Made by a program: the position numbers and the translations under genes | DNA from: Trichodelitschia bisporula | Taxonomy: Eukaryota > Ascomycota > Dothideomycetes > Phaeotrichales > Phaeotrichaceae | Length of the DNA: 64,000 nucleotides | Assembly: GCA_010356995.1 (NCBI GenBank) | Contig: ML996691.1 | Span: 1,124,021 to 1,188,020 of the forward strand | Reading direction: 5' to 3' | Notes under the pieces: generated by a model | Seen by the model: the letters and a program-made list of their open reading frames with translations, nothing else | The model's database searches: none | Told to the model about the DNA's origin: nothing | Shown here: positions 8,032 through 48,589 of the stretch, piece after piece | Layout: every line of letters starts with the position of its first letter | Position numbering within the stretch: the stretch's first letter is position 1

Positions 8032-8126
8032 GAAGATGACTTATCCGCTGCGCAAGAGTGAAATGGTGCGTGGCGGAGGGAGCTTTGCAAGCCAAGAGGA
8101 CAATCTATCCGCTGCGCAAGAGTGAA
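8013..8126. repeat. Direct repeat of about 50 bp, two copies 64 bp apart
   Basis: Copy 1 (8013-8062) and copy 2 (8077-8126) both begin AGGGAG and end in the identical 20-mer TATCCGCTGCGCAAGAGTGA plus A. They share the core CAAGCCAAGA, with about eight differences over 50 bp by eye. The repeat lies inside the decayed minus-strand region and does not give a continuous frame. It looks like an old local duplication. Confidence 0.85.
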
Positions 8127-15904: not shown

Positions 15905-17178
15905 CTACGCCTTCACCTCCTCAAACAAGCTCTCTTCAATCCCTTTCGGCTCCTCCTTCTCCTCCTTCTCCTTCTTCTCCGCCTCCTCCGTCGGCTGCGC
16001 AACCTGCCTCCCCCGCCATTCCCTCATCAACTTCCTCTGCCGCCCCCTAAGCCCAACCTGCAACCAAAGCGCCCATCCCTTCAGACCCATAAGATTCGCA
16101 TTTGCCCTCGGCAAGATAACATGCGCACTCTTCCCCGCCAACACGGAGTCGACAATCGCCCCCGCCACCGTCGCCGGATCAAGCGCATACTGCAAGAATC
16201 CATCGCCAGCATGGAAGCCCTCAAACAGCGCCGTACGCGTGTACCCCTGGCAAATCGCCACCGTGCGCACCTTTGGCGCCTTGTACACCGTCTTCAACTC
16301 CGCAGCTAAGCCCTCGTGGAATGACAGCGCCGCTGCTTTGCTCGCCGAGTAGTCGACGAGCTGCGGCGCTGTCACGTACGCCGCTAGACTGGCCACCGTC
16401 ACTACCATGCCGTGGTTCGTCTCCACCATGTGCGGCAGGAACGCCTGTGCGAGGTAGTAGTGCGCGAGGCTGTTAATCGCGAACGTAAGCTTCAGGTCCG
16501 ATTCCGAGGTCTCGAGGATCGTCTTGCCGCGCGCGAAGCCCGCGTTGTTAATCAGGACCGTCGGGTGGCCGACGTGCTTCCGCACGGCTTCGGCAGTCTC
16601 AGCGATGGCGGTAGGGGAGGCGAGGTCGCAGTGGAAGTAGTGGACGTTCGGGGTCGCTTTTACCATCAATAAGTGCGACTCATAAGTGCAACAGGAACAC
16701 ACTCACCCGTATACTGCAACGGCTGAATATCCAGCACCACAACCGTCACGCCCTTCTGCGCAAGCATCTGTACCGCCAGCGCCCCAATCCCATCGCTCCC
16801 ACCGGTAACAACCACAATCTCCTTATTCCAGTCGTAGGTATCATTGCTCCAATTATTCGTGACTGCGCCATCGAGGAACCCGTTCACCTTCCGATAGATG
16901 CCCAACCCGGCGAGGACCTTAAGCCAGCTGAACAACTTTGGCCGCCGAGCCGCAATTTCTCGCCCGCGCGCTGTATACAGCGCTGCGAGGAGGAGTGCGC
17001 CTGTTGGCAGGGGATTGAGCACCGTACGCTGGAACAGCGTGAGGAGCGTGTCGAAGGTGAAGCCTGCGAGCGGAAGAGTGAACATCGTCGGCGCAACCTA
17101 GCCACCCAACGTCGAAGAGACAAACTGACCTTCACGGGCCAGAAGGCCCTTATGAGGTTTGAGCTCAGCACCGGGCAT
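15905..17178 (-). CDS. Short-chain dehydrogenase/reductase, membrane-associated (17-beta-HSD11/RDH10-like)
   Basis: Predicted CDS complement(join(15905..16656, 16707..17063, 17130..17178)), 385 aa. The first exon (MPGAELKPHKGLLARE) was chosen over the later ATG at 17085 because a GTCAGT donor and CTCGCAG acceptor join it in phase to GFTFDTLL, a typical N-terminus of this fungal SDR group. A hydrophobic segment near residues 38-46 (ALLLAALYT) could anchor the protein in the ER or a lipid droplet. Rossmann-fold signatures are present: TGGSDGIG at 103-110 for NAD(P) binding, the acidic LDIQPL strand end, NNAG, the catalytic Ser in TVASLAAY, and the catalytic YSASK (Tyr-x3-Lys). The lysine/glutamate-rich C-terminal tail is unusual but short. 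The substrate is likely lipophilic (retinoid-, steroid- or fatty-alcohol-like) by family analogy only. Confidence 0.85.
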
Positions 17179-17928: not shown

Positions 17929-20900
17929 TCAACCAATGTGGCTCTCCGGCAGCATGCTCGCCATGCTGCGCTTCTTGTCAATGTCCATTGCGCCGCTCAT
18001 GACGCGAACCACTTTCTTGTTGGAGTTCGGTTTCGCGATGAGGACCTGCGCGGGACACACGACAATCTCATCGTCCCCTTCACCGTAGTCGTTCCCCTTC
18101 TTGACAACGAGGGGGAACAGCACAATTTTGACAACAGCCTGGCGGCTCTCAAGCTCCTCATTGGACGTGACGTCCCCGCTGCGCTCGTTCATAAGTGATG
18201 CATTGAACGACACCTTTTGGACCAGATCGCCATTGTCGTCAAACTCGGGACGCAGCGGCGCGAGCATGATGTACTCGGCGCGTTGGCACCGCATTTCAAT
18301 GGCGAGTTCGACTGCAAGGTTCATGACTTTGCGGAGTGAGTCGGTGATCTGTTTGACGAGGTGCGCCGGTGGGGGAAGGAGCTTCGAGAGAGTGACATAG
18401 ATCTCCTGGACAATGGCCTCCGTATCTTGCTTGCGTGTTGCGGCGAAAGATTCGCGCCTCGAGAGGAGCGTAAGGGTGATCGCACGCCATTGAGCAACTG
18501 CGCGTTGAGGGCCTGAGGAGTTAGCCGAAGAATCGCAAACTGGATCGTGAAACCTACCAACTTCCGTGAGAGTCTTCTCGAGCTTCTTGAGCGTCTGCCG
18601 TTGATCCCGATCCATCCCGAACAAGTACCGCGTGAAAACATACTCCCACACCATCGACATGACAAGCGACATAAAAACATCCCTACGCCTGACCCGATCC
18701 GCCAACAACATATCCACATCTGTACCATCAAGAATAGCATCATCCAAGCGCTCCTCCAACTTCTCATCCCGAATATCTGAAGACAACCTACAAGCCCTTG
18801 TATCCGAAAACTTAGAAAACCGCAACACCCATTGCTGCACATGCTGACACAACTTCTGACACGCCTCATCGAAATAGTCCTCATCCCGAACCGTCAGGAA
18901 GCTTTCGCCCTGCTTCGAGAGCAGAATCTGTTGCTGCAAATCCTTGATCTGCTCCACCGCATCGGCCAACTCGCCCTGTAGCCGCTCGATCTCCTCATTC
19001 CGATCCGCCAATGCCGTGTCCATCTCTTTACCCATGCCTGACGACATCTTGTCATGCTGAGCTCGCAGTTCGTCGAGAGCTTTGACAGCCACCGCCCACT
19101 GAGCGTGGGCATGGGCGCTCTCCGTTTGTAGGCTGGCATATTGCTCGTTTGCTGCGTTGGCCAATGTCTGGTTTTGTCCCGCGAGTCGCGCGGTGTCCTC
19201 TTTGAGTTTTGCAACCTCAGCCTGCAGCACCTCGACCTTCTTTCTCAGCTCAGCGATGAGTACATCCTTCTCTTGGATCTGCTGATCACGTGAGGCGATG
19301 GCGTCCGTCGCTTGGCGCACCGTGTTCGTGAGTGTTTCGCGTTCCTGGCTGGCAGAGATCATTAGCTGCTCCACCCTCAGCTTTTCATCTTGGAGCGCGC
19401 GTTTATCCGATGCGAGCTGATCGACTTTGGTCTGGAGCTCCGCGATATGCATGCTTTGCCGTTTGCGAATGCTTGGCGGGCGCGTGGGAGACATTGGCGA
19501 TCCGGTGCGATCGCCCCAACCCTCCTGTTAATGCGGATTAGCATCATGGATACCATTAGTAAATAACTAATTGCACTTACAAGGACGCCTTCCATCTCGG
19601 AGTCGCGTGATTTGTTAGCACGGTCACGGCCGCTGGCAAGGTAGGAGGACGCTGCAGCAACAGCCGCTGCGGCAGGGAGAAGTTGGGGTGCAGCAAGGCC
19701 GGACGGGGAAAACTTTCTGCCGTCCCGAGCCCCACCACTCACAGTGCGCAAGTCGCCGGACCGGCTAGTACGCCGCAGCGAGCGATCAGATCGGTTGCTC
19801 ATTGCACTTGTCGGCCGATTACTCATAGAACTGCCGGGTCGCATGTCATCTGGACTCCGGACACGCCCGATATTTGCGTCGCTGTGATTGCTGAGCGCAC
19901 TCTCTGACCGGAGCTCATTCAGAGGCGACATGCGCCGCAACTTGCCCAAGCTGGGAGTCCGGTTGCTCACACTGCGACGGGTGCCCGATCCACTGAGTGC
20001 TGTGCCGAGAGCCACTATCTCCTTCTCCTCGTCGATATGAGGCCATGATTTGCGTGCAATGAGATCGTCGATGCTTTCGGCAGGTGAGATTGCTAGACTA
20101 GCGGAGGGAGGAGTAACGCGCAAGTCTCCGCGAGGGGAAGGTCGCAAGCGCCGAGTCTGGATATCCTCGGGGGTTGCCGACCGTCGTGCAGCTTTGAGAT
20201 CACGCTGGGGATCTGCAGCATCTTGGAACCGGCTGCGTTTCTTGGCTAGCGGAGAGTCACCGGGGCTGGCTTCTGGGATCGTGTCAAGTACGGTGCTCGG
20301 CGTGTAGTCCTGTGGTAGAGGTGTGCCAACAACGGGGGTCTTTGTCCCAGCGGGTGGTTCAGGTTTCGCGAAGATTGACCGCGACAGTGGCTTCTCGGGT
20401 TCAACTTCTATGGGAGTTGCTCGGGACCGCGGAGTTGATGACTTGCGTGTCGTCTCTTGCGGCTCCGGGGCCGGTGTCTGAACCATAGCTTGGATGTCGC
20501 GCGTGGACGGCGATGACTGAAACAGGGTCGTCGATGCCCGGTCTTTGGTAGTAGACTCCACTGCGCTAGGAGAGATGCGCGGCCCCGTTGCAGAATAGAC
20601 GGGCAGAGACTCTTGCGAATCGCGATGAGCAAGCTTATCCGTTGTTGTTGCCTCCTTAACGAAAACGTTCCAATCCATGGGCACTTCAACATCAACCTCT
20701 GTCGGATCCTTGTCTGGCGAAGTGATGACAATGTGCTTGGAAGTGGTTGGAGTGGTCGGGGTGTCGTGGTATCCGCTGTCTCGAACAGAAGCCACAGAGA
20801 AGGGTTCCTTCATTTCGGATTCAGGCAAAATGATTCCGCTGTCACGATTGTCGGGGAAGGACCAGGCAGACTGAGAGATATCTTGAGCGGAAATCTGTCG

Positions 20901-23900
20901 CTGTAGGGTGGGTTCCACTGTCGAAAGGGTAAGTGGCGGTTCCTTCACACTCAAGTCTTGATAGTTGTCCGTGAACACGATTTTCTCTGGTTCTTCCTGG
21001 GAGGTTTCCTTGCCCGTGAAGAGTCGCTTCGCCGGATTGAGCTCGTCACTTTGGTTACGCGTTGGTGCCCTCCTCTTCTGTGAGGGGCTGAGGGGTGAAC
21101 GCCTGAGTGTAGGCGACATGCTCTTGTCACGCTCGCTGGACGACGCTACCAAAGTTGGTGTGGGACTGTGCCCATCTGAGAACATCCCAGCATCCAGATC
21201 TCGGGGGGTGACCGTTTGATGGGTGGGGCCAAAGACGTCAATCGGAGGTGTGGATTGAACGGTTGATGATTCGAATGGGGCCTCCGCTTTGACTTTCGGC
21301 TGGGTTACCGCGCGGGGCTCAGGAGTGACGGCTCGAGGCATCTGAGCTGCAGCCATAGCTGCAACAGTTGCTGCAGCTGCAGCGGCGGCGGCGGTAGGGG
21401 GGAGCCCAGAGTATGGGTGTAACCCAGTGGTGGTCGAAGGCGGAATCTCTTTTTGTACCCCGGGAGGCTCTTCTTCGTCGTGCCGTATAGATCGAGGCGC
21501 TTCTTCGACATGCTGCATAGGTTGAGGCTCTGCTTCGGCGTGCTGAGTGGACAAAGGCCTCTCCTGTATATAGCTTTCTTCAAGGGCTGGAAGCGGACTA
21601 ATATCGCGCGTAACCTCCTTTTCCCGGTCGAGGGTACTCGTAATACTTTTCTCCTTGTTAGCGTCGCTCTTCTTGCTCTTGCGCATCTTCTTGACAGGTA
21701 TATCCCAAGCTTCCGTTTCCGGTGCTGGCGTTACGAAAATATCTTTCGAACCTTCTTCTCTCACCTGCAGCTCCTCGGCCTCAACAGCGCTCGACTCCTT
21801 TTTGCCCCTCTTTTTCTTGAGCGACAGGCGTCGCTTGATGACCTCAGGCGTGGAGTCCATTTCCATCTCCGAGGGATGGGGAGTCGCGGCACGGGCTTTG
21901 GGGAACGCGGGTTCCTCGTCGTCAAAATCATCTGGACTCGCCATCGCAGCTCGCGTGGCCTTCTTGCCTTTGCCTTTCCGAGATTCAAACAGAGCAGCAT
22001 CCTCCGCCGCGGCTTTCCAGACATTCACGGCAGGATCCTCCTCCATGGCGGCAGCATCTGCGGCCGCCTCTTTCCACAGTTCAACCTCACGATTAGACTT
22101 CGCCGCAGCTTCTTCCGCGGCTGCTTTCCAGGCCTCAACCTCGCGATCGAGTTCAGCTCGAGTCGAAACTTGCGCCTTTGGATTCAGGATTTCTTCCTGA
22201 CGCCGAGTGAGGTCTTCAGTACGTTTGGTCTCAGCATGTTCTGCCACAGCATCCCACACACCAATCTTGTTCAAAGCCACACCGGCCTCTTCAGAAGTCG
22301 AATCTTCGGGACTCGCTTTGGTCTTCTTCTTCCGATGCTTCTTGCCACCAATACGAGTCTCGGGGTGCAAATCTGAGACCTCCACTGACTTCCAGGCAGC
22401 AAGATCATCATTAGCTTTGTCCTTGCTCGAACCTTCCACGAGTTTGGGATCCAGGCCTGCAGCAATTAGTCCAGCTGCGAGGACTGTGGCGAACTCGTCG
22501 CGGTCGGTGGGCGGCGGATTTGCGTCGTCCATTGCGGTACCTTCAAGGAACGGCTCGCGTGAGCTAGCCTCGACAGATTGACGACGGCTGCGGCGCCGGG
22601 AGCTGGGGCGCGAGGGGCCACGGCTGTGCTGGAGGGGTAACTCGTCGAAGGTAGGTTCTTCGAGAATGCCGGTCCGGGACGAGGGACGAATGAATGCGGG
22701 ATCAGTAGCGGCAATTGATGAATCAAAGCCCGCGTCCTGAAGTGCAGCGCCGACGGTGGCGGCAAATTCGTACGGCGAAGATGCGCGGGCAGGTTCCGCT
22801 GCTTGTTCAACCGATTTTGAGGCCATATCGGTAGTGCGAATGGGGCCAGGTGTCGACACGGGCCTGTACACTGTTGCCGGAAGCAGCTCCTCATCATCAT
22901 CATCGTAATAGTCCATCAGCAGGGCTGCTTTTCTGTTGACCTCAACCTGTTCGCTTGACATGGCATCGTGCATTTGGACGTCTTCGCTGGAGCCTGCTTC
23001 CAGCACCCGGCGGGCGTGAGCATCGGTCTCTTCGCTAGGACTGAAGTGACGAGTGGGCTGAGGAGCCGGTTCGTCCGACGGTCCTTCCTCGGGAGCATCG
23101 AAAATGATCGTCTTCTGCCGCTTCGGTTTGTTGAACTTGGGCTCCGGTTCCGTCGGGTTCTCGGCAGTATCTTTGGCGGTACGAGCTGCCTCGCGGTCAG
23201 CAGCGGTCTTTTTCGAAGCATGTTCAAGAGCAAAGTCTCGAATCTTGATGCCTGCGAACGAATCTTCAGTTGTTGCCGGGACAGGATACGGGATGATTGG
23301 CTTAGCGCCTGGCGGAGAGTCGTCGGCTTTTCGCTTACCCTTTGTGCTGGAAGTGACTGGAGTAAGCTCGCGGGCCGTTTCGACGGCTGTCGTCTCCGAA
23401 GAGGAGGAATTTGCAGCAACAGCTCCAACAACAGTTAAGGCAACAGCTCCGGCCGCAGTGCCGGCAACGAGTGCGCTGGCGACAGACGTTACATCAGTTG
23501 GCGATACAGTATCAGTGGCGTCTGCAGAGGCTTTCTCCTCAGTTGGCACTGCGGGCTCTGACTCTACTTCTTCGATAGGGGCCCTTTTGGTCGCTTCAAC
23601 TTCGGTCTCTTGATCCCTAGCAGCCGTAGATGAGCCCTGAGGCGTTCTAGCTGACGATTCGGCCTCTTGCAGCTTTCCTTTGCCCTTCTTTGCGTTCTTT
23701 TTGGCCTGTTTCTTTTGCTTCGCGGTCAAAAATGGGGCTTCAGGCTCCGCCACAGCAGCCTTGGATTGAGTGACAACTTCACTCTCTGCCCTCTCAGGCG
23801 TGGCTTCCTCCTTAACCGTTTCCTGACTCTGTGTCGTGTCTTCCTTCACTTCTTTCGTCTCCTCAGCAGGCGAATCCTTAACAACCTCCACCGCTTCCGC

Positions 23901-26900
23901 TCCTGCTACGGTTTCTCTGGTGTCCTGTGAGCGCGTGATTTTCGACTTGATAGTGGGCTCTTGATCGGTGGGGGTGCGTTCAAGAGTGGGCTCGGCAAGA
24001 GCAATGCTTTGCTCCACAATGGGAGGGGCTGGAGGCTCAGCTTGCGCCTGGGCCGAAGGAAGGTCGCGCACTTCACGCGCTTCCTCTCGCAGGATCTCGG
24101 TGGTGACAGTTTCCGTATCAGGGACTGCAAGACTAGTCGTCTTCTTGGCCCCGGGCCCAGTGGTCTCCATAGTAGGTGTGATAGGCGTTGCCGCACTGGA
24201 AGATTCTTCCGCAGGCATGGACTCGGTCTGGAGTTCGGACAGAGGCATCAGCTTCCCGGTCTTCTTCTTAACCTTCTTTGCTTTCTTCTTTGCAGCCCGC
24301 GAAAGGAGAGGATCTTCGTCCGCAGTGACCGGGTCAGGCAGGTCCTTAACTTCGGGGACGACCTCAGGCGCCGGCGATGCGGGATGCGGCTCCTGTGTGG
24401 GCGAAGGGTCGACTGTCCATGTGGTAGTAATAACGCCGGGTGCCTCACGCGTACCAGCTGGCTCGACAGACTTGGCAAGTTGGGGTTCAGGATCTGGAGT
24501 TGGCGCGTCCGCAACAGCTTCGCGCACCATAGCAGCAACGACGTCGGTTCGAGACGGCTCTGTAACCACCTTTTGCGCTTCTTCAACGATAGGCGAGGCA
24601 CCAGGAAGTGAGTCAAGTGCGATGGTCATCTTATCATCTTGAGCGATGGGCTCTTCCGCGGAGGCAGGAGTGATTTGTCCAGATGCCTTTTTGCCCTTCT
24701 TTTTCTTAGCTTTCTTGCTCTTGAGCGAGAAGAATGACTCCTCGATGGGCTCAGGCTCAGAGATGGCTTGAGCTGGCGTAGAGGCAGCTACTTCAACAGC
24801 AGCTTCCGCAGCGGAAAGAGTAGGTTCGGGCTCTTCAGACACAATTCTTGAGGAAGTGGCCAGAGCAGATGTGGACGGGAAAGTTTCAACAACATCGCGC
24901 GACGATTCAGCCGTGACCTTTGGCACCACTTCCGCAATATAGGGTGGAACAGCTTGATGCGTGACTTCGGTGAGATTGTCAGGTCCAGCAAGCTTCACGG
25001 GCTTCTCTTCTGTCGTCGGAGAGGCGTTCATGGCGGCCGCCGGCTCAGCTGCAGAGACCTTGTTCTTGCCCTTCTTATTTTTCTTTTTCTTGCCCCACAG
25101 CTCTCCTTGCAGCCAATCGTCTTCGGCTGCATCAACTGGAGATACCGCGACAGTCGGAGTGGCCTCAGGACCGGAGGTGGCTGTGACAACCGGAGTAGCT
25201 TCGACGGACGGAGTCCCCTCCACGACCGGGGTGACGTCAACGGCAGACGTGGCCTCCGCAACCGCGGTGGCTTTTAGGACTGGGGCAGCTTTGGTAGTTG
25301 AAGGAACTTCGGCAACCGTCTCAGAAACAGCAACTGGGGTGGATTTGGCCGACAGAACAGGCTCGGGAATAGAAGGGGCTGCGGCCATGGACGCTTCCTT
25401 ATCGCGGATGGTATCGTCACGAGTAGGTACGGCTCCTTTCCCGATGTCGTCGGAGATAGCAGGCTCAATCATAGAAACTGAGAGGTCTTCAATCGCATCC
25501 GCAGCGGCAGCGGCTTTCTGCTGCTGCTTAGCCTTCTTTCTAGCCTTCTTGCTCATCGGAGGAGTAAAGGACGGCTCCTCGGTAGGCTTGATTTCGGTGA
25601 CCTTTGATTCCACTGCCTGGTTGACAGCAGGCATTTCGCGGGATTGCTCGTAGATAACAGCCTCAGTCGCTTCGGTAACCGACTCCGGGACAGGCGCTTT
25701 GGTAGGTGCCAAAGCAACGCCTTCGGTGTGCACTTTGGTGGAGGCATCGGTAGGGATATCCAGCTGGACTTGCGGCTCAGAAACATTGGCGGCCACAGTA
25801 GGAGTCTCATCAGCACCCGGAACTTGGGCCACAACCTCGCGAACGGTCGGCTCAGGAACCGAGGAAATGTCAGCGTCAATGACTGGCGTATCTTGCTCAA
25901 CCTTGGCTTCCGGCTCCGGGGTCGTCGTGCCCTCTCCCTTCTGCTTCTGCTTTCCAGTAAGCTTGCGAGAAAGCATGGAGAAGAACCCTTCTTCGGCGAC
26001 AGGTTCCGACATAGTAGTAGGAATATCCGCAGGTCCTTCAGTCAGCGCGGCCACAACATTTTCGAAGGTTTCAACCACGGGGATATCAGCATCAGCAGTG
26101 TCGGCGACAGGCTCCGCAACGGTCTCTGCAGCAGGTTGTACATCCAGCGTAAGAGCGTCCTTCGAGCGTTGAGTATCAGCACTCGACTGCACAGCGGAGT
26201 TCGTCTCGTGTAAGGGTTGAGCGGCCTCAGAAAAGTCGGTTGTGATCACAGCCTCAGACTCTTTGACGTGTTCATCAGTCTGGATCGGTTCAACAAGAGT
26301 TACTCCGTGCGCCGCTTCAAGAGCCGTCCCGACCGAAAAGGGCTCGGTCATCTCGGTGGCCTCGAACACTGGGTATCCCATGTCGGACTCCATCGTGTTC
26401 AGCGAAGTAGAGGGGGGAACGATAATTGTGGGGTAGACTGGAGGAGGGGCACGCATCGAAGTAGGCTCGGAAGTTTTGGTCTCCCGATGGCCAAACGAGA
26501 CCGAAGCCTCCGAGGGCTCGGGGGACGGAAATCTCAGGTCGGCAGTTGCGACGATCTCAGGGACAACAATGATCGTCGCGCCGTCGGGACCAATCTGCGC
26601 GATGGTTTCGGGAGTAATCTGCGCGATGGCATCAATCTTCTGCTGGTCAGAGGCAATCAGTTGCCCAAACGAGCCCGAAGTTTCCGAGGGTTCAGGGGAC
26701 GGGAAGCGCAGGTCGGCAGTGGCAGTGATTTCGGGGACAACGATGATCGTCGCGCCGTCGGGACCAATGCGTACGATGTCCTCGGGCGTGATCTCGGGCA
26801 CATGTTGCTTGATCTCTGGCTGCTCGAGCTCTGGCGTCGGCTGCACATCGTCCATCTCAGACGAACGCAGCGGTCGAGTAAGTGTGAGGCCCATGGTGGA

Positions 26901-29900
26901 TGGAGAAGCAGGTGTTTCGGAAAGGGGAATAAGAGTCTCTTGAACGGACAAGGGGGTTTGGGGTTCAAAAGCAGAAGGCTGGTAGGTAGAGGTCTGAGGA
27001 ACAAAATCAGGAGCTTCGTGAACAGAACGAGGTTCGTTAACAGAAGTGGAGATTTCGGGTGCGAAGGTTGGTTGTTGTAGTAGAGGTTTGGTTGAAGATT
27101 CGGCGGTTTGCTCTGGCTCAGGAACAAGGTCGGAGAAAGTGGCATCGGCTATTTGTTTTCCCTTCTTCTTCTTCTTCTTGATCACTTTCTTCTTGGCAGA
27201 TGTGGTCGATGCTTCAGTCTCGTCTGGTGTTGTCTGAACTCCCTCAACGGTGGGCTTTGTCTCTTCGGCTACCGGTGGTGTCTCTTCGGCTACTGGCGTT
27301 GCCTCTCCCGCCCTGGGTATCATCTCATCTGGGACGGGACGAACGCCCTTGGCCGTGATTGGAGCCACCTTGACAGACGGTTCAATGGTCGACCCCAGCA
27401 CTTCAGTGATCGCAACATCTTCGGAAGGCACTGGAACTTCGGCCACTTCGCTCACATGAGCACGCTCGGGCCCAGAAACGGACACTTCTTTGACTTCGGC
27501 GATATCATCCGTCGGTTGAGGCACGGGTTCTGTTTCCTCAGCAACAGGCTCAAATGTGGCTGGTGCTCGGGTAGACTCATCAATAGCCGGCTGCTCGATA
27601 GGCAACTGCGGGAGGTCCCTGGTCTCTTGAACCTCAGCTTCAGTCGCCCTGGATTCTTTCTGCCGAGTCACATCCTCCGCCTGGTCAGCCTTCTTACTCT
27701 TCCCCTTCTTCGTCTTTTTCTTGGGAAGGGTGGGAGTTTCTTGTGTATCTTCGGCGGTCTGGACAGGTTCGACCGTTGGCTCGATGACATCAGCTTGCTC
27801 GCTGGGTCGGTCAACCACAGAAGGACGCTCGTCTTTGACTTCGGGGACGGGTTCGGGCACTCCCTTTGCGATAGTAGGCTCCAATACCCCAGGGGTGTGG
27901 GCAGCTTCGATAACGGTTTCGGCAATGGATGATTCCGGAGCATGTTGTGTTTCCTCGGCGACTTCGAGAACAACTCCCGGTGCAATCCACTCGACTTCGG
28001 GTTCCACAGGAGCCGCCTTCTCGAATTCAGGCTCCGCAGGCGCAGGCGTTTGGAAGGGTTGAGCGTCATCAGTCGTCTCTGTCGCAGCTTTCTTCGCTTT
28101 CTTAGCTAACTTCCGCAGTTCCTTTGCACTCAGAGCCGGTGCTACTGGCTCCACCTCCGGAATAGCCTCTGGGGATGCTTCAACAGGAAGCTCGTCCTTG
28201 ACTTCGAGCACCATTTCGGGTACAACTTCGGGCACATCCTTTACGATAGGAGGCTCCAAGACCGCAGGGGCGGGAGCGGCTTCCACAACGGTTTCGGTCA
28301 CAGACTGTGCGGGGCCAGGTTGCGATTCCTCAGTAACTTCGGGTACAATCTGTTCGACTTCAGGCTCCAGAGGAACAGACGTCTCGGATTCAAGCTCCAA
28401 AGGCACAGGTGCTTGAGCGGGTTGAGCGCGATCAGTCGTCTCTACCGCAGCTTGAGAAGTCTTCTTCGCCTTTTTAGCCAGCTTCCGCAACTCCTTTGCG
28501 CTCAGGGCGGGTGCGGCTGTTTCTACTTCCGGAACAGCCTCAGGAGATATCTCATCGTTGCGGGGTTGCTCGAGGGGCGCTTCGGCAGCCGGTACGGGTT
28601 CCACTGCTTGGATTATTGACGAGGCTTCCTCGGCTTGCCGAGGTTCAGTGAGAACTTCAGTTTCCAGAAGAGCAGGCTTCTCAGATTCGGGTTCCGCAGG
28701 CGCAGGCGTTTGGAAGGGTTGAGCGTCATCAGCCGGTTCCGCTGCAGCTTGAGCAGCCTTCTTCGCCTTCTTTGCCAGTTTCCGCAATTCCTTTGCACTC
28801 AGAGCCGGTGCAACTGGTTCCACTTCCGGAAGAGCCTCGGGAGATATCTCATTGTTGCGGGGTTGCTCGAGAGGCGCTTCGACAGCCGGTACCGGTTCCA
28901 CTACTTGGACTGTTGACGGGGCTTCCTCGGCTTTCTGAGGTTCATCGACTTCTGGCTCCCGTTCAGGCTTCTGGTCAGCGAGGTCGGGGGCAGCTACGGG
29001 TACGACAAACTCTTCCTTGGCCAGCGGCTCGGCCTCAACGGCTACGGCAGGCGGAGGTTGCTGGAGTGGCTCCTCAGACCCAGGTTGCGAAAGAACAACT
29101 TCCGCGAGCTGCGAAGGCTCCTCGATCTTGCCGACGGACTCTGCGGTCTCAGTTGTCTGGATTACTGCTTCAGGTTCAGAAGCGAAGTCCTTTCGGGTGA
29201 CGGCCTCTTTTGGCAGGTCCAGTTCCGCGGGCGGAGCATCAGCTTCAGCGACTTCTTCCGAGATGGAACTCTGTCCAGCCTTCGCCTTCTTGTTCTTTTT
29301 GGCCTTCTTTTTTACAGCACGGCAGAGGGGCTCTTCTTCGACAGGAGTTTGGAGCTCGACAACAGGCTCAACGACAGGCTCAACGGCAGGCTCAACGACA
29401 GCAGGCTCGACGACAGGCTCGACGACAGCAGGCTCGACCACGCACTCAATCACAGGCTCGCGCACAGGCTCGACGGCAGCAGGCTCGTCGACAGTAGACT
29501 TGACAACAGAGGGCTCGACAGCAGCGGGTTGGAGAACAGAGGGCTCGACAGCAGCGGGCTCGACGGCAGTGCGCTCGGCAACAACAGGCTCGGGTTCAAC
29601 AACGGCTTCAGTCGCTGGCTTCTGCGCTTCAACAACTGGAGCCAGACTGAGTGTTGCTTCCGCTACTTCAGGCTTGCCAAGAGCTTCCGTCGTGACTTCA
29701 GGCTTGACAAACTCCAAAGGTTGCTGCTCTTCAACGGCCTCGGCTGGTTGCAGGATTTCCTTAGACTGCGACACTGGCTGAACTTCTTTGACATCCAGAG
29801 TCGGCTCCTCGAGTTTCATCGGAAGTGGTACGACATCTGCAGGCTTCACAAGTGCCGGCTCGATTACCACTGGCTGAACAACCTGCTCAGTGACCACCGG

Positions 29901-32900: not shown

Positions 32901-35900
32901 CTTCAGGGTCGGAACACTCTCGTCGATAGGAAGCTCCTTGGAAAGCAGATCCTCGGCCTCAACTGCTGGTGTGGACGGAATACTGACTGAAGTGGCACCC
33001 TTCTTCTTCTTGCCTTTCTTCTTCTTCGAGGGTTCGGCCTCCACGGTGATGGGCTCGGACTCGACAGCAGTTTCGGTCGTTGCAGGAAGTTCAGGCTCAA
33101 CGGACTCAGGAATGGTCTTTGCAACCTCGACAGGCTTCACAACCTCAACAGGCTTCACCACCTCGGAAAGAGGTTCCACAACCTCTGGCTCACCCTGAGC
33201 CTCCGCGACGATCTCAGGAGCTTCAGAGGTGACTTCTTTGACTTCGGGAAGAGGCTTCAGGGTCGGAACACTCTCGTCGACAGGCAGCTCCTTGGAGAGC
33301 AGATCCCCGGCCTCAACTGCTGGTGTGGACGGAATACTGATTGAAGCGGCACCCTTCTTCTTCTTCTTCTTGTTCTTCTCCTTCGAGTGTTCGGCGTCCA
33401 CGGTGATGGGCTCGGACTCGATAGTCGTTTCGGTCATCGTAGGAAGTTCAGGCTCGACGGACTCAGACATAGTCTTTGCAACCTCGACAGGCTCCACAAC
33501 CTGAACGGGTTCCAGAACCTCACCGGGATCCACAACCTCAGAAAAAGCCTCCTTGATCTCCGGGGTGATCTCCGGGGTGATCTCCGCAACCTCTGGCTCA
33601 TCCGTAGCCTCCGCAACGGTCTCAGGAGCTTCGGCGGCAACTTCTTTGACTTCCGGAAGAACCTCCACGATCGGAACACTCTCGCCAACAGGCAACGCCT
33701 TGGAAAGCGGATCTTCGGACTCGATTGCAGGCGTGGACAGAACAACTGCGGGCGTGGACGAAATACTGGCTGAAGCTGAGCCCTTCTTCTTCCTCTTGCT
33801 CTTTTTCTTCTTCGAGGGTTCGGCCTCCGCGACGATGGGTTCGGGCTCGATAGTAACAGTTTCGGCCGGTTCAGAGAGTTCAGGCTCGACGAGCGTCGGC
33901 TCGGCAGCCGCGGACTCGACAACCGCCGGCTCGGTGGCTACTGGTTCGACTGACGAGGACGGAAGGATCGGCTGAGTGACAGCTGGCTTATCTGAGACGA
34001 TAGATTCCGAAACGATAGCTTCTTCCGCAGCGGTCGTGATGGCTTCTGGGGTTACGGTCTCCAGGACATCAGCCTCAGATGCAATATCTCGTCCCGGGGT
34101 TGTTTCGGCAGTAATCGGCTCAGGAACCGCTTCGACTGGTATATCCTTGAGAAGCACCTCCGGCAAAGGCTCGAGGACATTGAACGCCTCCCGCTCCGAG
34201 GAAACCAACTCCGAAACTGCTGCCGCAGCAGTTGCAGGCTCAGTAAGTGAAATAGGTGCTTCTTGGATATCTTGGCTCCCGGGTTCGCGCTCAGCTTTGT
34301 CAACCGTGATCTCCTCTTTCACAGCCTCTGGCGCAGCCTCCGCCTCCGGTTCGACAGCTTCGGTGCTCTTGCCCTTCTTTTTCTTAGGCTTCTTCTTTTT
34401 ACCCTTGGGCACCGAAGCCTCTTCGACCGCCGCCGCTGTCTCCTCCGTGATCGGTGAAACCTCGACAGCGGGAGTGGGTTCGACTTTGACCTGCTGTGGG
34501 GCTTCGATGATCACTTCAGGTGCCTCGACAGTCCGCTCCTTCGAATCTCCAGGCGAGGATTGGATCTCTACCCGTGCCGGCTCCGGTTGAACAGGTCCCA
34601 GGACAGTCATCTCCGACTCGACCAGCTTCTCCTCTGGCATAGGCCCCTGCACTGCTGGCTCGGCGATGGGGTGGACCATTTCAACGGCATCAACTGCATG
34701 GGTGCCCTGCGGTTGCACTTCCGCCCCGACCGTCGCAAGAGGGGTCTCCACGACATCGCTCTTCCTCAATGAAAAGTCCTCCGCTTGAACCGCATCCGCC
34801 TTAACAGGTCCTTGGACCGGCGAGTTGACCGCCGTGACAGGTTCCTGCGCAATTGCGCGCTCAGTCACCTCCGCAGCCGGCACCGCTTGAGGTTCAACAG
34901 CAGGTACTGACTTTTCCTCAACAGCCTCAGGCACCTCAGATGACGCATCCTCCGTAGCAGCAGCAGCAGACGCAGCCTCCTCTTCCAGCTGCTTAGCCCG
35001 CTTTTTCTTCTTGCTCTTCTTCGACTTTGCGGACGCCGGGACAGGTACCTCGACCGTCTCAGCCGGCTTCACCTCAGCCGGCAATCCATCACCAAGAACC
35101 GCACCAGTGCGGCCCTTGTCCTGCGCACGCACACCCATCTCGTCTCGCACTTCACGCTGCCCAGCAGCCGTCTCGTCACTCCCAGAAACGTTGCGTTTAT
35201 CATCTGACGTTAGACGTGGCTCAAGAGACACGGGAGGGGATATCAAATCCGTAGGGACATCAGACAAGATGCTTCCGGCGGGAGCATCAACCTGACCAGA
35301 AATTTCCCTCGCGGCTCCAGGTGCAAGTCCCGTACCCACAAGATCAGCAAGCCCCACACCAACCCCAGCCCCCAAGCCAAGTCGTTGGTCGAGTCTAGCG
35401 CGCTCCACACCAGCGCTCGGACCAGCCGTCTCCGCGTGCGGGATCGGCTCATCCTCGGCGCTACCGGGAGTGGCGCTATCAGCCGCGCGTGTCAGGGTGT
35501 CATTGGCCGGGTGTATGGAGCCGCTTTCTGACCGCTCTGTGCCTGGTTCGGGCAATGCACGTGTGGACGCGCTGTCCGTCGGCGCCTGCTGCAAAGTGTC
35601 TTGCTCTTGCGGCTGCTGCAGTGCAGTGCGCTCGGTCTCGTCGTCGGCGGGCAGTGCAATGGAGGCTGGTTCTGGTGAGGTGGGGGTTGGTACTTGCGCG
35701 GTCGGTGCTTCTGCGATTGGTGCATCCGCACTGGCTGGCGGCGGTTCCTTAAGCTTCTGTTTAAATGCAAGCGCAGCGCGCTCGCGGGCCAGTGCCAGCA
35801 CGCCCACGTTGGCGAACGACATTTTGCGTGGGTCGATGGTTGGCATGGACGGCTTGTCGGACGGCTTTTCCGTTGGTGCGGGTGGCTTTTCTTCAGCCTT

Positions 35901-38900
35901 GGGAGCTTCCTTCTTGTTCAAGATGCGCCCGAAAGCAGACCAGATGGACGTGCCTGCTGCGGCGGCCTGAGAGGGCGTCTCGGACGGTGGAGGGCGTGGG
36001 GGTGATGATTCGAATGGCAAGCTGTCAGGGTCGGGGAATTCCTCGATTTCGCCCAGGGAAGCTGGGAGGTCGCGGGATGACGTTGGTTGGCTTTCTTCTA
36101 CCCGTTCCATCTGCTTGGAAGTGAGCTCCGCCGCTTTGGCAAGAGGCTGAGGCGCTGGCTTCTCCTTTTCAACACGCAGCAGTTGCTCCAGCGCCGCCTC
36201 GGGCGTGACAACACCCGTCATGTGAAGATCCGGATCGATTCCGCTGTCAAACATAGGGACCGATTCTGAAGGTGCGCGCAGCAGGGGCGCCTTGTCTGGG
36301 ACTGGTAGGGCCTTGGAAGCTTCCTCTTGGATCGGCTCCAGGGGTGTAGCATGGAACACCGCCGTCGTCTCCGGTGCGAGAGGAATCTCGCGCTTGTCCG
36401 TGACCACTTCGAGCACATCCGTCGGAATATCCTTCGGCACCACTGGCATCGACTCGGCGAGCTCAGGAAGGCGTTTGTTGGCGATAGGGCCAGTCTGGAT
36501 CGACAACGGCTCCACGCCCTTCTTCTTCTTCTTGCCCTTGCCTTTGCTCGTCGGGGTCACCTGTCCAACCTCCCCGCTCTCAACCCACGACTCGACTGTT
36601 GCCCGCGAATCCTGGCCAGTGATGTGCTCAAGCTCGGCGGAGGTGAGTTCTTTAATCTCAGAGGACGGCTCGGGGACAGGTTCAGCGGGTGTCTTGCCCT
36701 TGTTCTTCTTCTTCTTTTTCTTGGACTTGGAAGAAGCCTGAGAGGGAGCGATGGACACTTCTTTGGACGATGCTTCGGCGTCATCAGTCGGAAACTGCCG
36801 TGTTTCGTCCTTGGAGGCTTCGGATGATAGGAGTTCACGAGCCGCAAGCCCAGCAGCGGCACCGAGGGCGGTAGCCGCGACGACGCCAGTACCAGAGTGC
36901 TCACCACGGACGCCAACTTCCTGTCCGGGCGTTTCGTCCAGATCTCGCGCAGCTTCACCCGCCTTCCTTGTCGGCGTAGCATGTTGCACGGCAGGCTCGC
37001 GACCCCGCGTGGGCGAAACGCGCACCTCAGCCTCAGCGGCAGACTCCTCAGCATCCGACTGCCTCCAATGCTCAGGATACGGGTCCTCATCCCCGTCCTC
37101 AGATACACTCCGATCCGACGTCCCAAGCGGATGATTCGAAAACGTGTCCGCCGTCGGAGTCGCCTGCTGCGAGTCGAGATATTCGCTCGAGCGCTGGCTG
37201 CGCGTATCGATCTGCAAACCGAGGCCCTCGAACGGATCTTGGAAGTTCATCGGCGATTCAAGCGACGAACGCGTCGATCGCGCGTCTTCGTCGACTTCCT
37301 GCACTGATGGCGCACGGGAAGTAGCTGTGCTCTCGGGCAGAGCGGGGAGCACGGGGAGGATAGAGTCGATCTCGGGCGTGCGGCGGTTGCGCTCGGGCAG
37401 GTACAAGGGCCGCAGTTCTTGTGTGTTGACCCTGTATTCAAGCGAGGGCGTCTTGGAGTGCCGCCGCGAGTGTGTCCATGGTGAAGTTGGCGAATCGGCT
37501 GCCGGGGATGCACCGGCGGGAGAGCTGTTGCGGCCCCAGCGGAGGGCGATGGGAATGGCTGTTGTCGATGCGGCGCGGAGCTTTTCCAATGTTGGCCGCG
37601 GAGGAGTCTTGGGCTCCTGGTATGGCGAGCCGGGCCTGCTTCTGGGGAGGGCGGGAAGATCCTCGAGAGAGTTGACATCGATGGGAGATGCTGGTCGTGA
37701 TGGTGGCAGCTGAGGTAGGCTTGCAAGATCCAGATAATCCAATGCCGGGAGAGAGCGTGCCACTGGGTGAGGCGCAAGGTCTTTGTAGGATGTGCTTGGT
37801 CTGCTCTCAGGCGAGTCAAGCAGATCATGTACACTGAAGAACTCGGGCAGCTTTCGTTGGATGACGGGAGTTTCGGGTAAGTCCCTTGCTTCAACATGAA
37901 TGGGGGAAGGAGGCCTGCTGTCTGGAAGGCCGGGGAGATGAAGAACTGAGCCCACGTCAATAGGGGATGATGGGCGAGTAGGCGGAAGGGAAGGGAGGTC
38001 CACGAGAGAACCCACGGTGATAGGAGACGAAGGCCGAGTGAGAGGAAGAGTGGGGAGGTCTCGAAGGCTGCCAACAAGAATTGGAGATGACGGGCGAGTG
38101 GTAGGTAAAGATGGAAGGTCTCGCATGCTGCCAACCAGGATAGGAGATGAAGGACGAGTAGTCGGCAAAGAAGGGAGGTCCCGTAGGCTCCCAACCAAAA
38201 TAGGAGAGGATGGCCGAGTGCTCGGAAGGGAGGGAAGGTCGTTCACACTTCCCACAAGTATTGGCGAAGATGGCCGCGTGGTCGGCAACGAGGGGAGATC
38301 TTTCAGACTTCCTACCAATATCGGCGAGGAAGGCCGGGTAGTCGGCAAAGAGGGAAGATCTTTCAGACTTCCTACCAATATCGGGGAGGAAGGTCGAGTC
38401 GTCGGTAGGGATGGAAGATCCACCAGGCTTCCAACGAGAATCGGAGACGAGGGCCGCGTCGCCGGCAACGAGGGAAGATCACGCACGCTCCCGATCAAGA
38501 TCGGCGAAGACGGCCGCGTCCCCGGCAGCGAGGGTAAGTCCATAACGCTGCCGACCAGCAAGGGCGACGAGGGCCGCGATCCAGGGAGCGAGGGGAGATC
38601 AAGGACACTCCCGACTAGCAGAGGAGAGGTCGGCCGCGACTCCGGCAAGTCCGGCAAGTCGACGGTGCGACCAACGGCAATGGGCGAGGAAGGACGGGTA
38701 CTCGGAAGAGAAGGCAAATCGACAGCGCGGCCCACAGCGACAGGGCTCGAAGGCCGCGAGCCGGGCAAGGACGGCAAATCCACCGCGCGACCAACATCAA
38801 CAGGCGACGAAGGCCTCGTCGACGGCAAAGAAGGGAGATCGACACTCCTGCCGACATCGATAGGACTGGCAGGCCGGCTATGCGGGAGCAGCACGCTGAG

Positions 38901-41900: not shown

Positions 41901-44900
41901 TTTGCGCCGTGCTTGCTGTGCTTTCTGTGCAATGATAGATCCCCCGATGATGCCTCCGATAACGGGAGCGATCACCGAAGCTTCATCACGTCGAGGTGAC
42001 TTGCGACGGCGAGGAGGAAGCACGGGAGCCCGGTCGCTATCTGACGAGGAGCTGTGTCTAGAGTGCCGACGCCTATTCTTCTGCTGATAGCGAGGGTCTG
42101 GACGAGGGGGCTTTGGCGGGTTGGTGTAGTCAATCGGAGGGCCGTCTGGCGCGGTATATGTCTGCGCATTATACACAGAGTTCCGGATCGGAGCCTGAGG
42201 CTGCGGCTGTTCGTAGCGGGTGCTTCCCTGTCGGGATGGCCGTGTCGGCAATCCAGGTACAGCTTCGTAGCGACCAGGTTCATCCGTGAGAACTGGATGA
42301 ACAGGTACAATGCTCGGTGACGTTGTGATAGACGCTGCAACGCTTCCCTCAATGAAGGAAGCGTTCGGTGGGGTGAAATTCGCGTCGCCGTACCCAAGCG
42401 TCAAACTCTCCTGCGACGGCTTCTTACTTTGCCTCCTCGGCCATCGCCAGCTCCACTTTGTCACGCCGGAGCCATTCGAAGCCAGCGAGTCGCTACTCTT
42501 CCGAGCGGCGCTCTGTGCCTTGTAAAAGTCGCCAAAGGCAAGCGCAGAATCGTGGGAAGATGCGTTATCCGGAACATCTCCCTCATCCTCCCACTCTCCC
42601 TCGTCATCACCAGCCAGAACTCCAGAGTACCGTCCCGAAGATTTGCTTGGCTTGCTCGGTGCGATACCTCTGGTTCCCGGGTGCTGATTACGGCCCTTTT
42701 GCCTTCCCTGAGCGGCTTGCAGTGCCATGGTGGTAGCGCCAATACTCAGCAGCGTCTCGTTCAGCCGCTCCGTCGAGGTTTGGCGCTTGTGCTTGCGCTG
42801 CCGCAGTGATTCATTCGATTTACGGCGCTTGTGCCTCCGAGCATCTGTGCCATAGACAAGGCCGTTGTCGGCGGACGAGGACGCATTCCCGAGGCTGAAA
42901 AAGGATTTATTCCGCTGATGCTGCTTCTGCTTCTGCTTCTTCGTAGAAAACAGCCCGCCGAACAGACCCCCGCCAGCCGAGACATTTTCCTTTGAGGACC
43001 ACGCCAGAGACTGGTTCGAACGCCGCGAGGGACCATCATTCCGGTACACACCATCGACACTATCAGAACTCCCCTGGCGACCATGGTGCACACGGATATA
43101 TTCCTCGGAAGGTGACTTGGTCCGCCTCTGTCGTCGTCTGTCCTGGGTGGCAGCGATGGCAGATCCAGCAATCGCGGCTCCGGCAACGGCTCCAAGGCCG
43201 CCCGACATCCGTTCGCGGGATCTAGAACGGGAGCTGGAAGAATGGCGCCGAGTCCTCTCATAAAAGTAGGTGTTCGAATCGCGCCTTGATTCGGTGGGAA
43301 CACGCTCCAGGGATCGGCTTCGTCGACGTCGTGGCGCTTGAAAGGTCGAAGCGCTGACTCCGGTTCCACGGTCAAGAGATCTGCTGCGACGCCTGGTAAC
43401 ACCGCGGGATGTCTCGCTCGCCCTGTCGTCACGCACAGCAACTGACTCCCGCGAATCCATCCGACGGCCAGATCTGACGCTGTAGGTATCGTCGAAGTCT
43501 CCTTTGTGGTTGGTGATTGCGTTACCGACTTTCCCGGCACCATACGCCGCAGTACCCGCTAGGGCGGCAGTTGCCAACAGGTTCGTTTTGCTACGGCGCT
43601 TCTCGCTGTCAGAGGAATGATACCCGCTGTACCGCGATTCCTTGCTGATTCGACCAGTGGTGTGCAACTCGCCAGATCTGCCGAATTCGTCAGACCTTCT
43701 CTCACGAAGATTTCCCGAGGTGCGACGCCGAGGCCGGTGCTTGCGCGGCGCATCGCTTGGAGTAGTGCGAGGGTCGAAGCAATCCTTGCAGACGCCGATG
43801 TACTCCATGTACTCCTCCATCTTCTGCACGTCTTCGTGATCCTTCCACCAGTCCACGAGCTTGCTGATGGGGTTAAGACGCCTCCGCTCCATCATCTCCG
43901 ATGCGTTTCCAGAATAGTGTATATTGTGGCTCCCTGGGGGGCGATTGAACCCGTTTGTGGGCAGCGAAGCGGAGTGGTGGTGCGAAGCCTGGTGCGAAGC
44001 CTGGTGAGCCGAGTGTTGATGGTGAAGAGCATATGCGCCAGCAGCCAACCCTGCCGCCCCAGCGGCATATGCGCCGGTTTGAGAGTCGGACGAATGCTTT
44101 CCAGGCTTCCCGCTCGAGGAACCACCTTGGGGCCTCGTGGGAGTAGGCGGACCATATGTCCCAGCCGTTGGCCCTGGGCCATTCTGGTACGAGCCAACAC
44201 CGCCACTCATGCTTGTGGAGGAAGCCTGCTGGTAGTACGACGTGCCGCTGTTCTCCACATGTGAGCTTGGAGACTGCGTATGGCTCCCAGCATGGCTGAG
44301 TCCATAGCCAACAGCAGCTGCGCCGGCAAGGGCAGCCGCAGCAGGGACTCCGCTGCTGGATGGCTTCGAAGAGTAACTGGGCTGGCGGCCCGGGCGCGGA
44401 GAATTCTGCTGCGAGCTAGCCAGGACGGCAGGACTAGGAACGCTCTGGGGCCGAGGGGGCCTGGTAGGGGTTGCTGAAGGGCTGGTGGACGGCTGTCCTG
44501 GAGGCGGCCCACCACCAAAATAGTCATTAGCGGTACCTTGACCTGTCTCTTGAGGAGGCGCGGGGGTCGCGTGGGGCGTCATTAGGTGCGGTTGTGTACT
44601 CGCGATGACCTTTGGCGGCTCCGGGCGAACTCCGGGTTGCGTCAAAACGGACTGTCCATGGTCGCCGTAGTATTCGGCAGCCAGACCAGGGCTCGGAGCT
44701 GGGCCAACAGCCGGTTGGTACGGGAAGGGATGCTCATATGTGGAAGGGTCCTGGCCAGGAAACTGGTTCGTAACCTGCGGAGTCGGGTAACTGTTCTGAT
44801 GAGGGAGAGGAGGGGCCGCTACAGGCCCTTGACCGGGAAACTGGCCCACACCCGAAGCCGGCGCATTCGAAGGGACGTTGCTCTGAAAATCGTCCATGGC

Positions 44901-45401
44901 CCTACTCGACGCGTACTCGGGCTGGTCCAGTCCTCGGTCACTCTCACGCCTGTCACCGGTCCTACTCCGCCTCTTGGTGCGGTCTTTGCGCTTGCTGTCA
45001 CGCTCGCGACTCCGCGACCGATCCTTAGAGCTATAATTCCGGTCGCCGCGGTCGCGACTGGACGACCTCTGACGGCGCGTGCCAGCCCTGCTCTCCGTAA
45101 CATACGAGGCATTATCATCCAGCGTTGTGCGGCGATGAGTGCGGTCGGCGCCGATGTAGTCGGACCCCCTATCACGGGACGGGGCCGTCGCATAAGATGA
45201 CGCAACGGAATCGCCGTCTACGGGAGGGTACGCAGAGGTTCGAGAGGGGGTGCGACGGGTACGAGATTCGTCGGCAGGCGGATTTCGGGACGTGGAGGAT
45301 GAGACGACAGACTCGGGGCGATTTCGAGACGACGAAGATTCGCCTTTGCGCCGGGGACTCGGCGGCGTTGCATCGCTCTTCTTCCCGCCGAAAGGCCACA
45401 T
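17929..45401 (-). CDS. lah: Giant leashin-type protein (LAH; 'involucrin repeat protein'), predicted Woronin-body/septal tether
   Basis: Predicted CDS complement(join(17929..18512, 18558..19524, 19581..45401)), 9,123 aa (roughly 1 MDa). Exon 1 is an uninterrupted 25,821-bp frame. The 56-bp intron (GTAAGT...GCTAAT...AACAG) joins EMEGVL to EGWGDRTGSP; the 45-bp intron (GGCTAAC...CTCAG) joins LTEVG to PQRAVAQW. The N-terminus is RS/R-rich with a conserved globular block at about 500-545 (RLNPISKLVDWWKDHEDVQK, EYIGVCKDCFDP). A Q/R/E helix lies at about 1180-1405, a 20-residue repeat array at about 2175-2494, then thousands of acidic, Pro/Val/Glu-rich residues punctuated by lysine clusters. The C-terminus (about 8610-9123) has a long coiled coil (HIAELQTKVDQLASDKRALQ) and a helical domain (DEDYFDEACQKLCQHVQQWV). 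This layout matches leashin, which tethers Woronin bodies to septal pores in Neurospora and Aspergillus. The family name is inferred from architecture and remembered resemblance, not from a search. Confidence 0.8.
26486..26792 (-). repeat. Two-copy 58-residue unit in leashin with PDGATIIVVPE motif
   Basis: Unit 1 (26792-26619) and unit 2 (26618-26486, partial) are in-frame tandem copies with a 174-bp offset. Both contain IGPDGATIIVVPEI followed by ATADLRFPSPEPSE. The sequence is hydrophobic and well ordered in character, unlike its surroundings. Confidence 0.9.
28000..28830 (-). repeat. Three-copy LSAKELRKLAKKAKK module in leashin
   Basis: The motif APALSAKELRKLAKKAKK occurs three times at about residues 5530-5780, each followed by a threonine/alanine/aspartate spacer and AQPFQTPAPAEPE or a close variant. 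The basic amphipathic helix replaces the poly-lysine clusters seen in neighbouring modules. Copies one and three share the spacer more closely with each other than with copy two. Confidence 0.88.
30855..33835 (-). repeat. Seven-copy long module in leashin (lysine cluster + STPAV + DPLSK + LPEVKE)
   Basis: Seven modules of variable length follow each other at about residues 3850-4850. Each consists of a basic cluster such as KKSKKKKKGSTSASI, the motif STPAVEAEDPLSKxLPVEE, then a hydrophobic/acidic VPEVKEVxxxxPE motif, and a long Val/Pro/Glu spacer. The conserved core recurs at nearly invariant order while the spacers differ, so the core seems to be under constraint. The later copies (near 31300 and 30900) are the most alike, suggesting recent duplication. 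Confidence 0.9.
37920..38879 (-). repeat. Sixteen-copy 60-bp coding array in leashin (20-residue unit)
   Basis: The interval is exactly 960 bp, sixteen in-frame 60-bp units. The consensus is TRPSSPILVGSLRDLPSLPT. The first copies read SRPASPIDVGRSVDLPSLPS and VDVGRAV variants; the middle copies, near 38280-38400, are almost identical at DNA level. Two units in succession carry SLKDLPSLPT. A degenerate seventeenth unit (SRPPSPIHVEARDLPETP) follows, and two related motifs (SRPASPIDVNSLEDLPALPR) occur slightly further on, near 37620-37720. Each unit has an SP dipeptide that could be a proline-directed kinase site. Confidence 0.95.
41180..41870 (-). other. Leashin segment: 230-residue Q/R/E-rich helix (coiled coil or single alpha-helix)
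   Basis: Residues about 1178-1405 of the giant protein are almost entirely Glu, Arg, Gln, Ala, Leu and Asp in heptad-like order, with recurring units such as LRQQEEAERQRRERE and ADRVRQQEDADRLRQQ. No proline interrupts it, unlike the rest of the protein. This is the only long helical stretch outside the C-terminus, and it could be a rigid spacer or dimerisation rod. Confidence 0.75.
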
Positions 45402-48146: not shown

Positions 48147-48589
48147 TCTCGAGTTGTTTTGTAACTCGTGGCCGAGCTACCTGAATGGGCTTTCTGTATT
48201 GCGCTGTAAAGGGTCCCGACTTCCACTCAACGCGTCCGCGTCGCAGGTTGAACCCTGAGCAAAATTGCAAACAAAGCGGCGGCGATTGAGGGGGGGAGCA
48301 ACAAGAGGTTTCGGCGCTCGTTTGGATGTAAGATGGGAAGACTCAAGATCGAAGGTTTAGAAGATTCGAAAGAATGATGTTAAGGTTGAAGTGGGAATAC
48401 GATGCGGCGCTGAATGCGGAGGGCAGATGCAAGCCGGAGGCCCGTGCATTCGAAGCCAAGATTTCGTCCACTTTGTTCGAGTAGAGGACCCGCGCGCACA
48501 ACAGAACTTTTGAGATCCGACGTCCTGCTTGTCGAAGTTGCATCCTTCACAACGACGGTTGACACCATTCCGCCTCACAGCCAGCAGTC
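48147..48589. promoter_or_regulatory. Divergent promoter between CstF-64 and IMP3
   Basis: The 443-bp gap separates the start codons of two divergently transcribed housekeeping genes and must hold both promoters. No TATA box stands out. The strand upstream of IMP3 has pyrimidine patches near 48540-48580 (for example CTTCACAACG and CATTCCGCCTC), common in fungal leaders. Confidence 0.6.

Follow-up and report, generated by a model that had tools for sequence, protein, structure and literature searches.

Published work has shown that leashin (Lah) binds Woronin bodies through its N-terminus and the pore rim through its C-terminus (PMC2690989, PMC5345055). A genome-wide association paper describes Aspergillus fumigatus AFUA_2G08060, annotated as an involucrin repeat protein, as involved in Woronin-body tethering. 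The Neurospora lah gene was first predicted to encode 10,821 residues and proved to be two genes, and leashin homologues in other Pezizomycotina were given as 5,936-7,480 residues long; the same paper argued that the fused gene is ancestral and the Neurospora split derived, and attributed the split to the lineage of Neurospora and Sordaria (Ng et al. 2009, PMC2690989). Here we describe a leashin-type gene, lah, on the minus strand of a 64-kb window (the whole stretch analysed, from contig ML996691.1 of Trichodelitschia bisporula). Very probably this gene is a single-copy leashin orthologue of the fused septal-pore type, whose ends would lie at the Woronin body and the pore rim, whose linker would act as a spring, and whose length comes from linker growth. 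Among the proteins compared, its unusual trait is size, not fusion.

Structure of the lah gene

The initial annotation had described a gene of about 27.5 kb encoding about 9,100 residues, with an unbroken 25.8-kb exon of more than 8,600 open codons, joined through two short introns to its C-terminal part and filling over 40% of the window. This outline holds: the gene runs on the minus strand from 45401 to 17929, occupies 43% of the window, and its spliced product has 9,123 residues and a mass of 979.9 kDa. Its parts are as follows.

17929..45401, minus strand: coding region of the three-exon lah (leashin) gene, 9,123 residues
19581..45401, minus strand: exon 1, 25,821 bp, 8,607 codons without a stop
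19525..19580, minus strand: intron 1, 56 bp, GTAAGT...AG, phase 0
18558..19524, minus strand: exon 2, encoding the coiled coil and the opening part of the C-terminal helical module
18513..18557, minus strand: intron 2, 45 bp, in-frame length; its 15 residues are absent from the consensus of aligned relatives
17929..18512, minus strand: exon 3, remainder of the C-terminal module and the stop

From stop to stop, the long minus-strand frame spans 19377-45422 (8,681 open codons), and the C-terminal frame, joined by the 56- and 45-bp introns, holds 532 codons. The start ATG lies at 45401, and the N-terminus it opens (MWPFGGKK...) is similar to the MWSKITGK... of relatives, whose proteins support both intron junctions by being continuous across them (YEGWGD..GSP.SPTRPPS and EVGP.RAV..WR). 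About 295 stops would be expected in exon 1 by base composition alone and 164 when composition is taken by codon position, which puts the probability of an open frame near 1e-72; none was observed. Measured per 300 codons, first-position G reaches 0.36-0.56, above background, between residue 2701 and roughly residue 8100; it is near background at residues 1-1200, 2101-2700 (the R1 repeats described below) and 8101-8700. In these three segments base bias alone is therefore insufficient to argue for coding, and similarity to relatives makes the case.

Could the extra length be an artefact of assembly or gene modelling, arising from collapsed or expanded repeats or from introns retained in frame? 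The linker between the two ends of the protein does contain several tandem duplications, but their copies longer than 150 nt diverge by 17-33% in DNA, which is too much for assembly stutter. Exon 1 holds one intron-like string of in-frame length, whereas 100 codon shuffles average 2.3, and the pattern used in this search matches both real introns; because such strings are no commoner than in shuffles, the long exon gives no sign of hidden introns. We regard an artefact as very improbable, and the reading frame, as read from the DNA, looks intact.

Conserved ends and the leashin family

Four features define the two ends of the protein.

43737..43886, minus strand: N-terminal conserved motif, residues 506-555 (LVDWWKDHEDV..EYIGVC..CFDP....APRKHR), within the presumed Woronin-body-side module
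18916..19455, minus strand: long coiled coil predicted by the structure model (its helices 24-160 and 168-203)
18289..18882, minus strand: helical bundle predicted by the structure model for the presumed septal-pore module (the span takes in intron 2)
18616..18678, minus strand: segment aligned with the published transmembrane region of A. fumigatus Lah, residues 8890-8910, VFMSLVMSMVWEYVFTRYLFG

The conserved N-terminal, Woronin-body-side sequence of the leashin family is present in the window protein. Residues 1-700, used as a query, matched 12 of 557 scored proteins (best E 8.7e-120), and the region around the motif (query residues 481-590) is present in 176 of 213 proteins, the window protein counted among them. 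At the other end, the coiled coil is followed by a LahC288-type module with a hydrophobic, putatively membrane-spanning segment. Two C-terminal searches, with candidates limited to proteins 0.55-1.75 times the query length, matched 475 of 668 scored candidates when started from a Lasiodiplodia relative and 512 of 966 when started from a Coccidioides relative; the best 120 of the 475 and the best 120 of the 512 were listed. Among the matches listed are three Exophiala dermatitidis entries named Leashin and A. fumigatus P0169, to which the window protein is 58% and 55.5% identical, respectively, in its C-terminal part. The leashin-type assignment made in the initial annotation is thus borne out, with both ends matching the family.

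The source names of the C-terminal matches include Leashin, Involucrin repeat protein, Titin and futsch-like. The last three names invite the idea of a giant low-complexity protein from another family, akin to titin or involucrin, with no more than a compositional likeness to leashin at its ends, but the last 433 residues share 55-69% identity with the relatives listed, many residues are invariant in a C-terminal alignment of 29 sequences, and the exon-1 protein matches no Pfam family at E 0.01. The C-terminal alignment contradicts this idea, which we find hardly credible.

Within the final 1,000 residues of P0169, positions 761-781 hold IFMSVVMTMVWEFVFTRYLFG, the site at which the transmembrane region of A. 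fumigatus Lah was published (Leonhardt et al. 2017, PMC5345055), and these positions align with residues 8890-8910 of the window protein. The aligned segment lies 240 residues from the C-terminus in A. fumigatus and 234 in the window protein. In an AlphaFold model, the helical bundle takes in this segment as a hydrophobic helix, and ten-residue means of the predicted local distance difference test (pLDDT) score within the bundle are 74-96, the intron-2 loop excepted. Several observations weigh against the reading as a fused septal-pore leashin. The VV pair of the A. fumigatus segment falls at 5280-5281 in P0169 and at 5303-5304 in Leonhardt et al. 2017, an offset presumably due to another isolate or gene model. 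The C-terminal hydrophobic segment of the window protein holds E and R and does not figure in the list of the protein's ten stretches of highest hydrophobicity, so that its membrane role is putative. The AlphaFold models of the C-terminal module are of moderate quality (mean pLDDT 69 and 66), and compared with PDB folds they gave no match reaching E 0.001.

Within its own 25.65-Mb genome the exon-2 protein has one match, which makes the C-terminal module single-copy. Hex1 is also encoded in this genome (G000:C15); it is 76% identical to an N. crassa query, matches the Woronin-body proteins 1khi and 8qlw in PDB, and ends in CRL. By this gene the fungus would belong with the Woronin-body-forming filamentous ascomycetes.

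To place the protein among its relatives, we used a tree of 65 C-terminal modules, hand-picked mainly by name from the 207 proteins with a C-terminal match (the window protein included) and containing no Sordariomycete. The window protein groups with P0002 (5,527 residues) and P0004 (5,408 residues) with support of 100/97, and the neighbours of this group are Zopfia, Paraphaeosphaeria, Boeremia, Clathrospora and Pyrenochaeta, which are Dothideomycetes. The window fungus is accordingly best seen as a probable Dothideomycete with kinship to Pleosporales. Three leashin proteins in the comparison are filed under plants (P0073, P0096 and P0101, from Carpinus fangiana and Quercus suber); P0073, the one placed in the tree, sits among fungi, and all three probably reflect fungal contamination of plant genomes.

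Both end modules occur in one protein in 169 of the 212 relatives, with lengths of 4,663-7,613 residues (median 6,089); 37 have the C-terminal part alone and six the N-terminal part alone. Four of these six database models (P0001, P0003, P0011 and P0012) break off where intron 1 lies and therefore carry no C-terminal module, which is probably an annotation fault. The window gene model holds both ends in one protein, and the initial annotation had treated this single fused frame as special. The comparison does not support that view: the fused form is common and, according to Ng et al. 2009 (PMC2690989), ancestral, so the contrast with Neurospora marks the Neurospora lineage and not the window fungus.

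One open frame might nevertheless be expressed as two proteins, as with Neurospora lah-1 and lah-2, the N-terminal one bound to Woronin bodies and the C-terminal one septal or apical. Some points favour this over a single tether: an open frame is compatible with an internal promoter, the Neurospora locus was itself annotated as one gene before two transcription units were recognized, and the long linker leaves room. Against these stand three others. Neurospora LAH-1 terminates in a 2,607-bp alternative-frame exon (Ng et al. 2009), and no open frame of that length appears in the other frames of the coding strand within exon 1 here, where the longest stretch is 331 codons (the exon 2/3 frame aside). 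The first-position G bias runs on through the linker. The window protein also groups with Dothideomycetes, in a tree without Sordariomycetes, and Ng et al. put the split in Neurospora/Sordaria. We regard expression as two proteins as improbable.

Growth and patterning of the linker

The window protein is the longest of the 213 compared (212 relatives and itself). Some fungal peptide synthetases are larger than 9,123 residues; the earlier claim that this is among the largest fungal proteins is fair if taken loosely. The features that bear on this length are the following.

22827..37097, minus strand: linker, residues 2769-7525, acidic, P/E/V/A-rich, no Pfam match
32823..33893, minus strand: node-plus-spacer unit duplicated in tandem (residues 3837-4075 with 3981-4193), 75.8% DNA identity over 714 nt, one among several pairs
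37878..38837, minus strand: R1-like array, 16 in-register 20-residue copies of LPSLP..TRPSSPI.VGS, residues 2189-2508
22302..36743, minus strand: ladder of 25 lysine-rich nodes, residues 2887-7700, cluster centres 2896-7690, median spacing 169

Leashins are characterized by a long acidic linker that is weakly conserved and has a high content of P, E, L/V and S/A. The window protein has such a linker, with a net charge per residue of -0.09 over residues 3401-7250. Between shared landmarks (2769 and 7525) it measures 4,756 residues, compared with 1,613 in P0004, and about 85% of the length excess over P0004 sits within it. Self-similar stretches longer than 100 nt make up 28% of the linker. As these comparisons show, the length of the window leashin came from linker growth, partly through tandem duplication of node-plus-spacer units.

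Ahead of the linker, two further R1 copies begin at residues 2562 and 2582, which brings the strict-pattern count to 18, compared with a maximum of nine in the other 212 proteins. Within and around it, we define a lysine-rich node as at least six K in 12 residues. Shuffles of residues 2701-7900 gave a mean of 0.22 nodes and a maximum of two in 500, compared with the 25 observed. Nodes are a family property: counted anywhere in the protein, all 123 non-redundant members (of the 213, the window protein included) have at least four, with a median of 18 and a range of 4-50. Across 2,153 nodes in the 30-90% stretch of these proteins, an acidic run from about -12 to -7 and S at -1 (47%) precede KKxKKKxKK. 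In the 30-85% stretch of the 123 members (2,131 nodes), at least two acidic residues occur at -13 to -7 in 84%, and W or F occurs at -8 to -3 in 1,179 (55%, background 12%). In the window protein, S/T-P follows 17 of the 25 nodes within 25 residues, compared with 9.2 for random positions (P 0.0015). Charge segregation at a scale of 5-6 residues exceeds shuffles in the window linker (z about 10), and in seven relatives z is 2.0-10.7, strong in most. We found no description of lysine-rich nodes in the leashin and Woronin-body literature searched, to which the study of the A. oryzae linker by Han et al. 2014 did not belong, and the word lysine is absent from the text of Ng et al. 2009 (PMC2690989) that was searched.

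Nine Gly/Ala-rich hydrophobic stretches of 17-31 residues also occur in the window protein, at 348, 443, 732, 1438, 2836, 3341, 7303, 8002 and 8573. Four of them lie in the first 2,800 residues, where shuffles give a mean of 0.003, and A. fumigatus leashin has eight similar ones; they are possible membrane or self-association segments.

By analogy with Neurospora and Aspergillus, the N-terminal module would bind the Woronin body, and by analogy with A. fumigatus, the C-terminal coiled coil and helical module with its hydrophobic helix would be held at the septal pore rim. The low-complexity linker of about 4,750 residues may then act as an entropic, charge-patterned spring that holds the organelle near the pore, its nodes could be tuned by phosphorylation, and a longer linker would give a longer reach and a softer tether for the same job. 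Textbook polymer relations, prefactor and exponents included, predict for the 8,135 residues that separate the end modules a contour of 2.9 um and a root-mean-square distance of 50-110 nm. The P0004 tether comes to 36-76 nm and 1.6 um; relative to it, the resting distance of the window tether would be greater by a factor of about 1.4 and the contour by a factor of 1.85. The observed Woronin-body spacing, as cited by Ng et al. 2009 (PMC2690989), is 100-200 nm. The suggestion in the initial annotation that tether length, and with it Woronin-body position, differs in this fungus is plausible as regards tether length, given about 3,100 extra linker residues relative to P0004.

We also put forward, tentatively and as less likely than not, a more specific idea: that the linker is a spring of repeated units, each an acidic spacer and a lysine-rich node, in which nodes condense on spacers or on other chains, phosphorylation tunes the length without a motor, and species add or remove whole units. 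In just over half of family cases the spacer has an aromatic residue near its end, and in the window protein nodes are often followed by S/T-P. A number of results tell against this picture. W or F precedes only four of the 25 window nodes at -8 to -3 (16%, background 8.6%), and the S/T-P excess after nodes is modest family-wide (45% of nodes, 1.33-fold density). The correlation between node number and protein length is only moderate (r 0.58), and beside P0005, whose 7,052 residues contain 26 nodes, the window protein is long-spaced rather than node-rich. Charge segregation is weak in A. flavus (z 2.0), and a second measure, sequence charge decoration over 400 residues of the window linker, shows no difference from shuffles (42.5 and 41.0, s.d. 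1.5). R1 arrays are not unique to the window protein either, since a looser LP.LP count gives 28 in P0106, 22 in P0120 and 20 here.

If the repeating-unit spring were true, it would tie two observations to a physical mechanism: Zymoseptoria pores are kept open by ATP (PMC5656841), and Lah is among the septal proteins with the largest phosphorylation changes in a YakA/low-iron phosphoproteome of A. fumigatus (PMC11166925). The window fungus would then represent the long end of a species-tuned reach. Tethers of about 4,700 to about 9,100 residues that keep both ends form a natural series for relating length to organelle distance or sealing speed, and the node ladder offers a concrete, testable feature in a linker otherwise described in the literature searched as unconserved, acidic and repeat-rich.

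Surrounding genes and comparison with known systems

Other genes and frames in the window are as follows.

1806-6329, plus strand: RasGEF protein with N-terminal motif
12369-14573, minus strand: FUSC-type transporter-like frame
15905-16702, minus strand: short-chain dehydrogenase
47179-48078, minus strand: frame upstream of lah and in the same orientation, resembling cleavage stimulation factor subunit 2 in its RRM, hinge and C-terminal domains
48563-49201, plus strand: gene of the ribosomal protein S4/S9 family
49535-51079, minus strand: cutinase domain divided between two frames, which meet near 50536

The break between the cutinase frames near 50536 is perhaps an intron, and the 3' part of this region contains tandem repeats with periods of 21-138 bp.

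Among known systems, the titin PEVK region is a P/E/V/K-rich chain like the leashin linker, a parallel that Ng et al. 2009 (PMC2690989) pointed out; Steinberg et al. 2017 called the leashin/titin parallel speculative, and the exon-1 protein, unlike titin, is without a Pfam match. Neurospora crassa leashin (LAH-1/LAH-2) shares with the window protein its conserved ends, an acidic low-complexity linker and an array of 18 LP..LP-type repeats, matched by 18 copies here. On the Neurospora side, known from Ng et al. 2009 alone, two proteins arise from two transcription units, unlike the one frame of the window gene, and the R1 core, LPVDEDLDLLPALPES, is more acidic than the window R1.

The Aspergillus proteins are nearer in architecture. 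A. fumigatus Lah (AFUA_2G08060; P0169, 5,515 residues) has the same order of ends in one frame, the same hydrophobic C-terminal segment and 15 lysine-rich nodes, and the A. flavus relative (P0149, 5,727 residues) has the same order of ends in one frame and 10 nodes; the window protein is 3,400-3,600 residues longer than either, and its 18 strict-pattern R1 copies compare with none in both. Even P0002 and P0004, its nearest relatives in the C-terminal tree, have nine lysine-rich nodes each compared with its 25, and the P0004 linker measures about 1,600 residues, compared with about 4,750 in the window protein.

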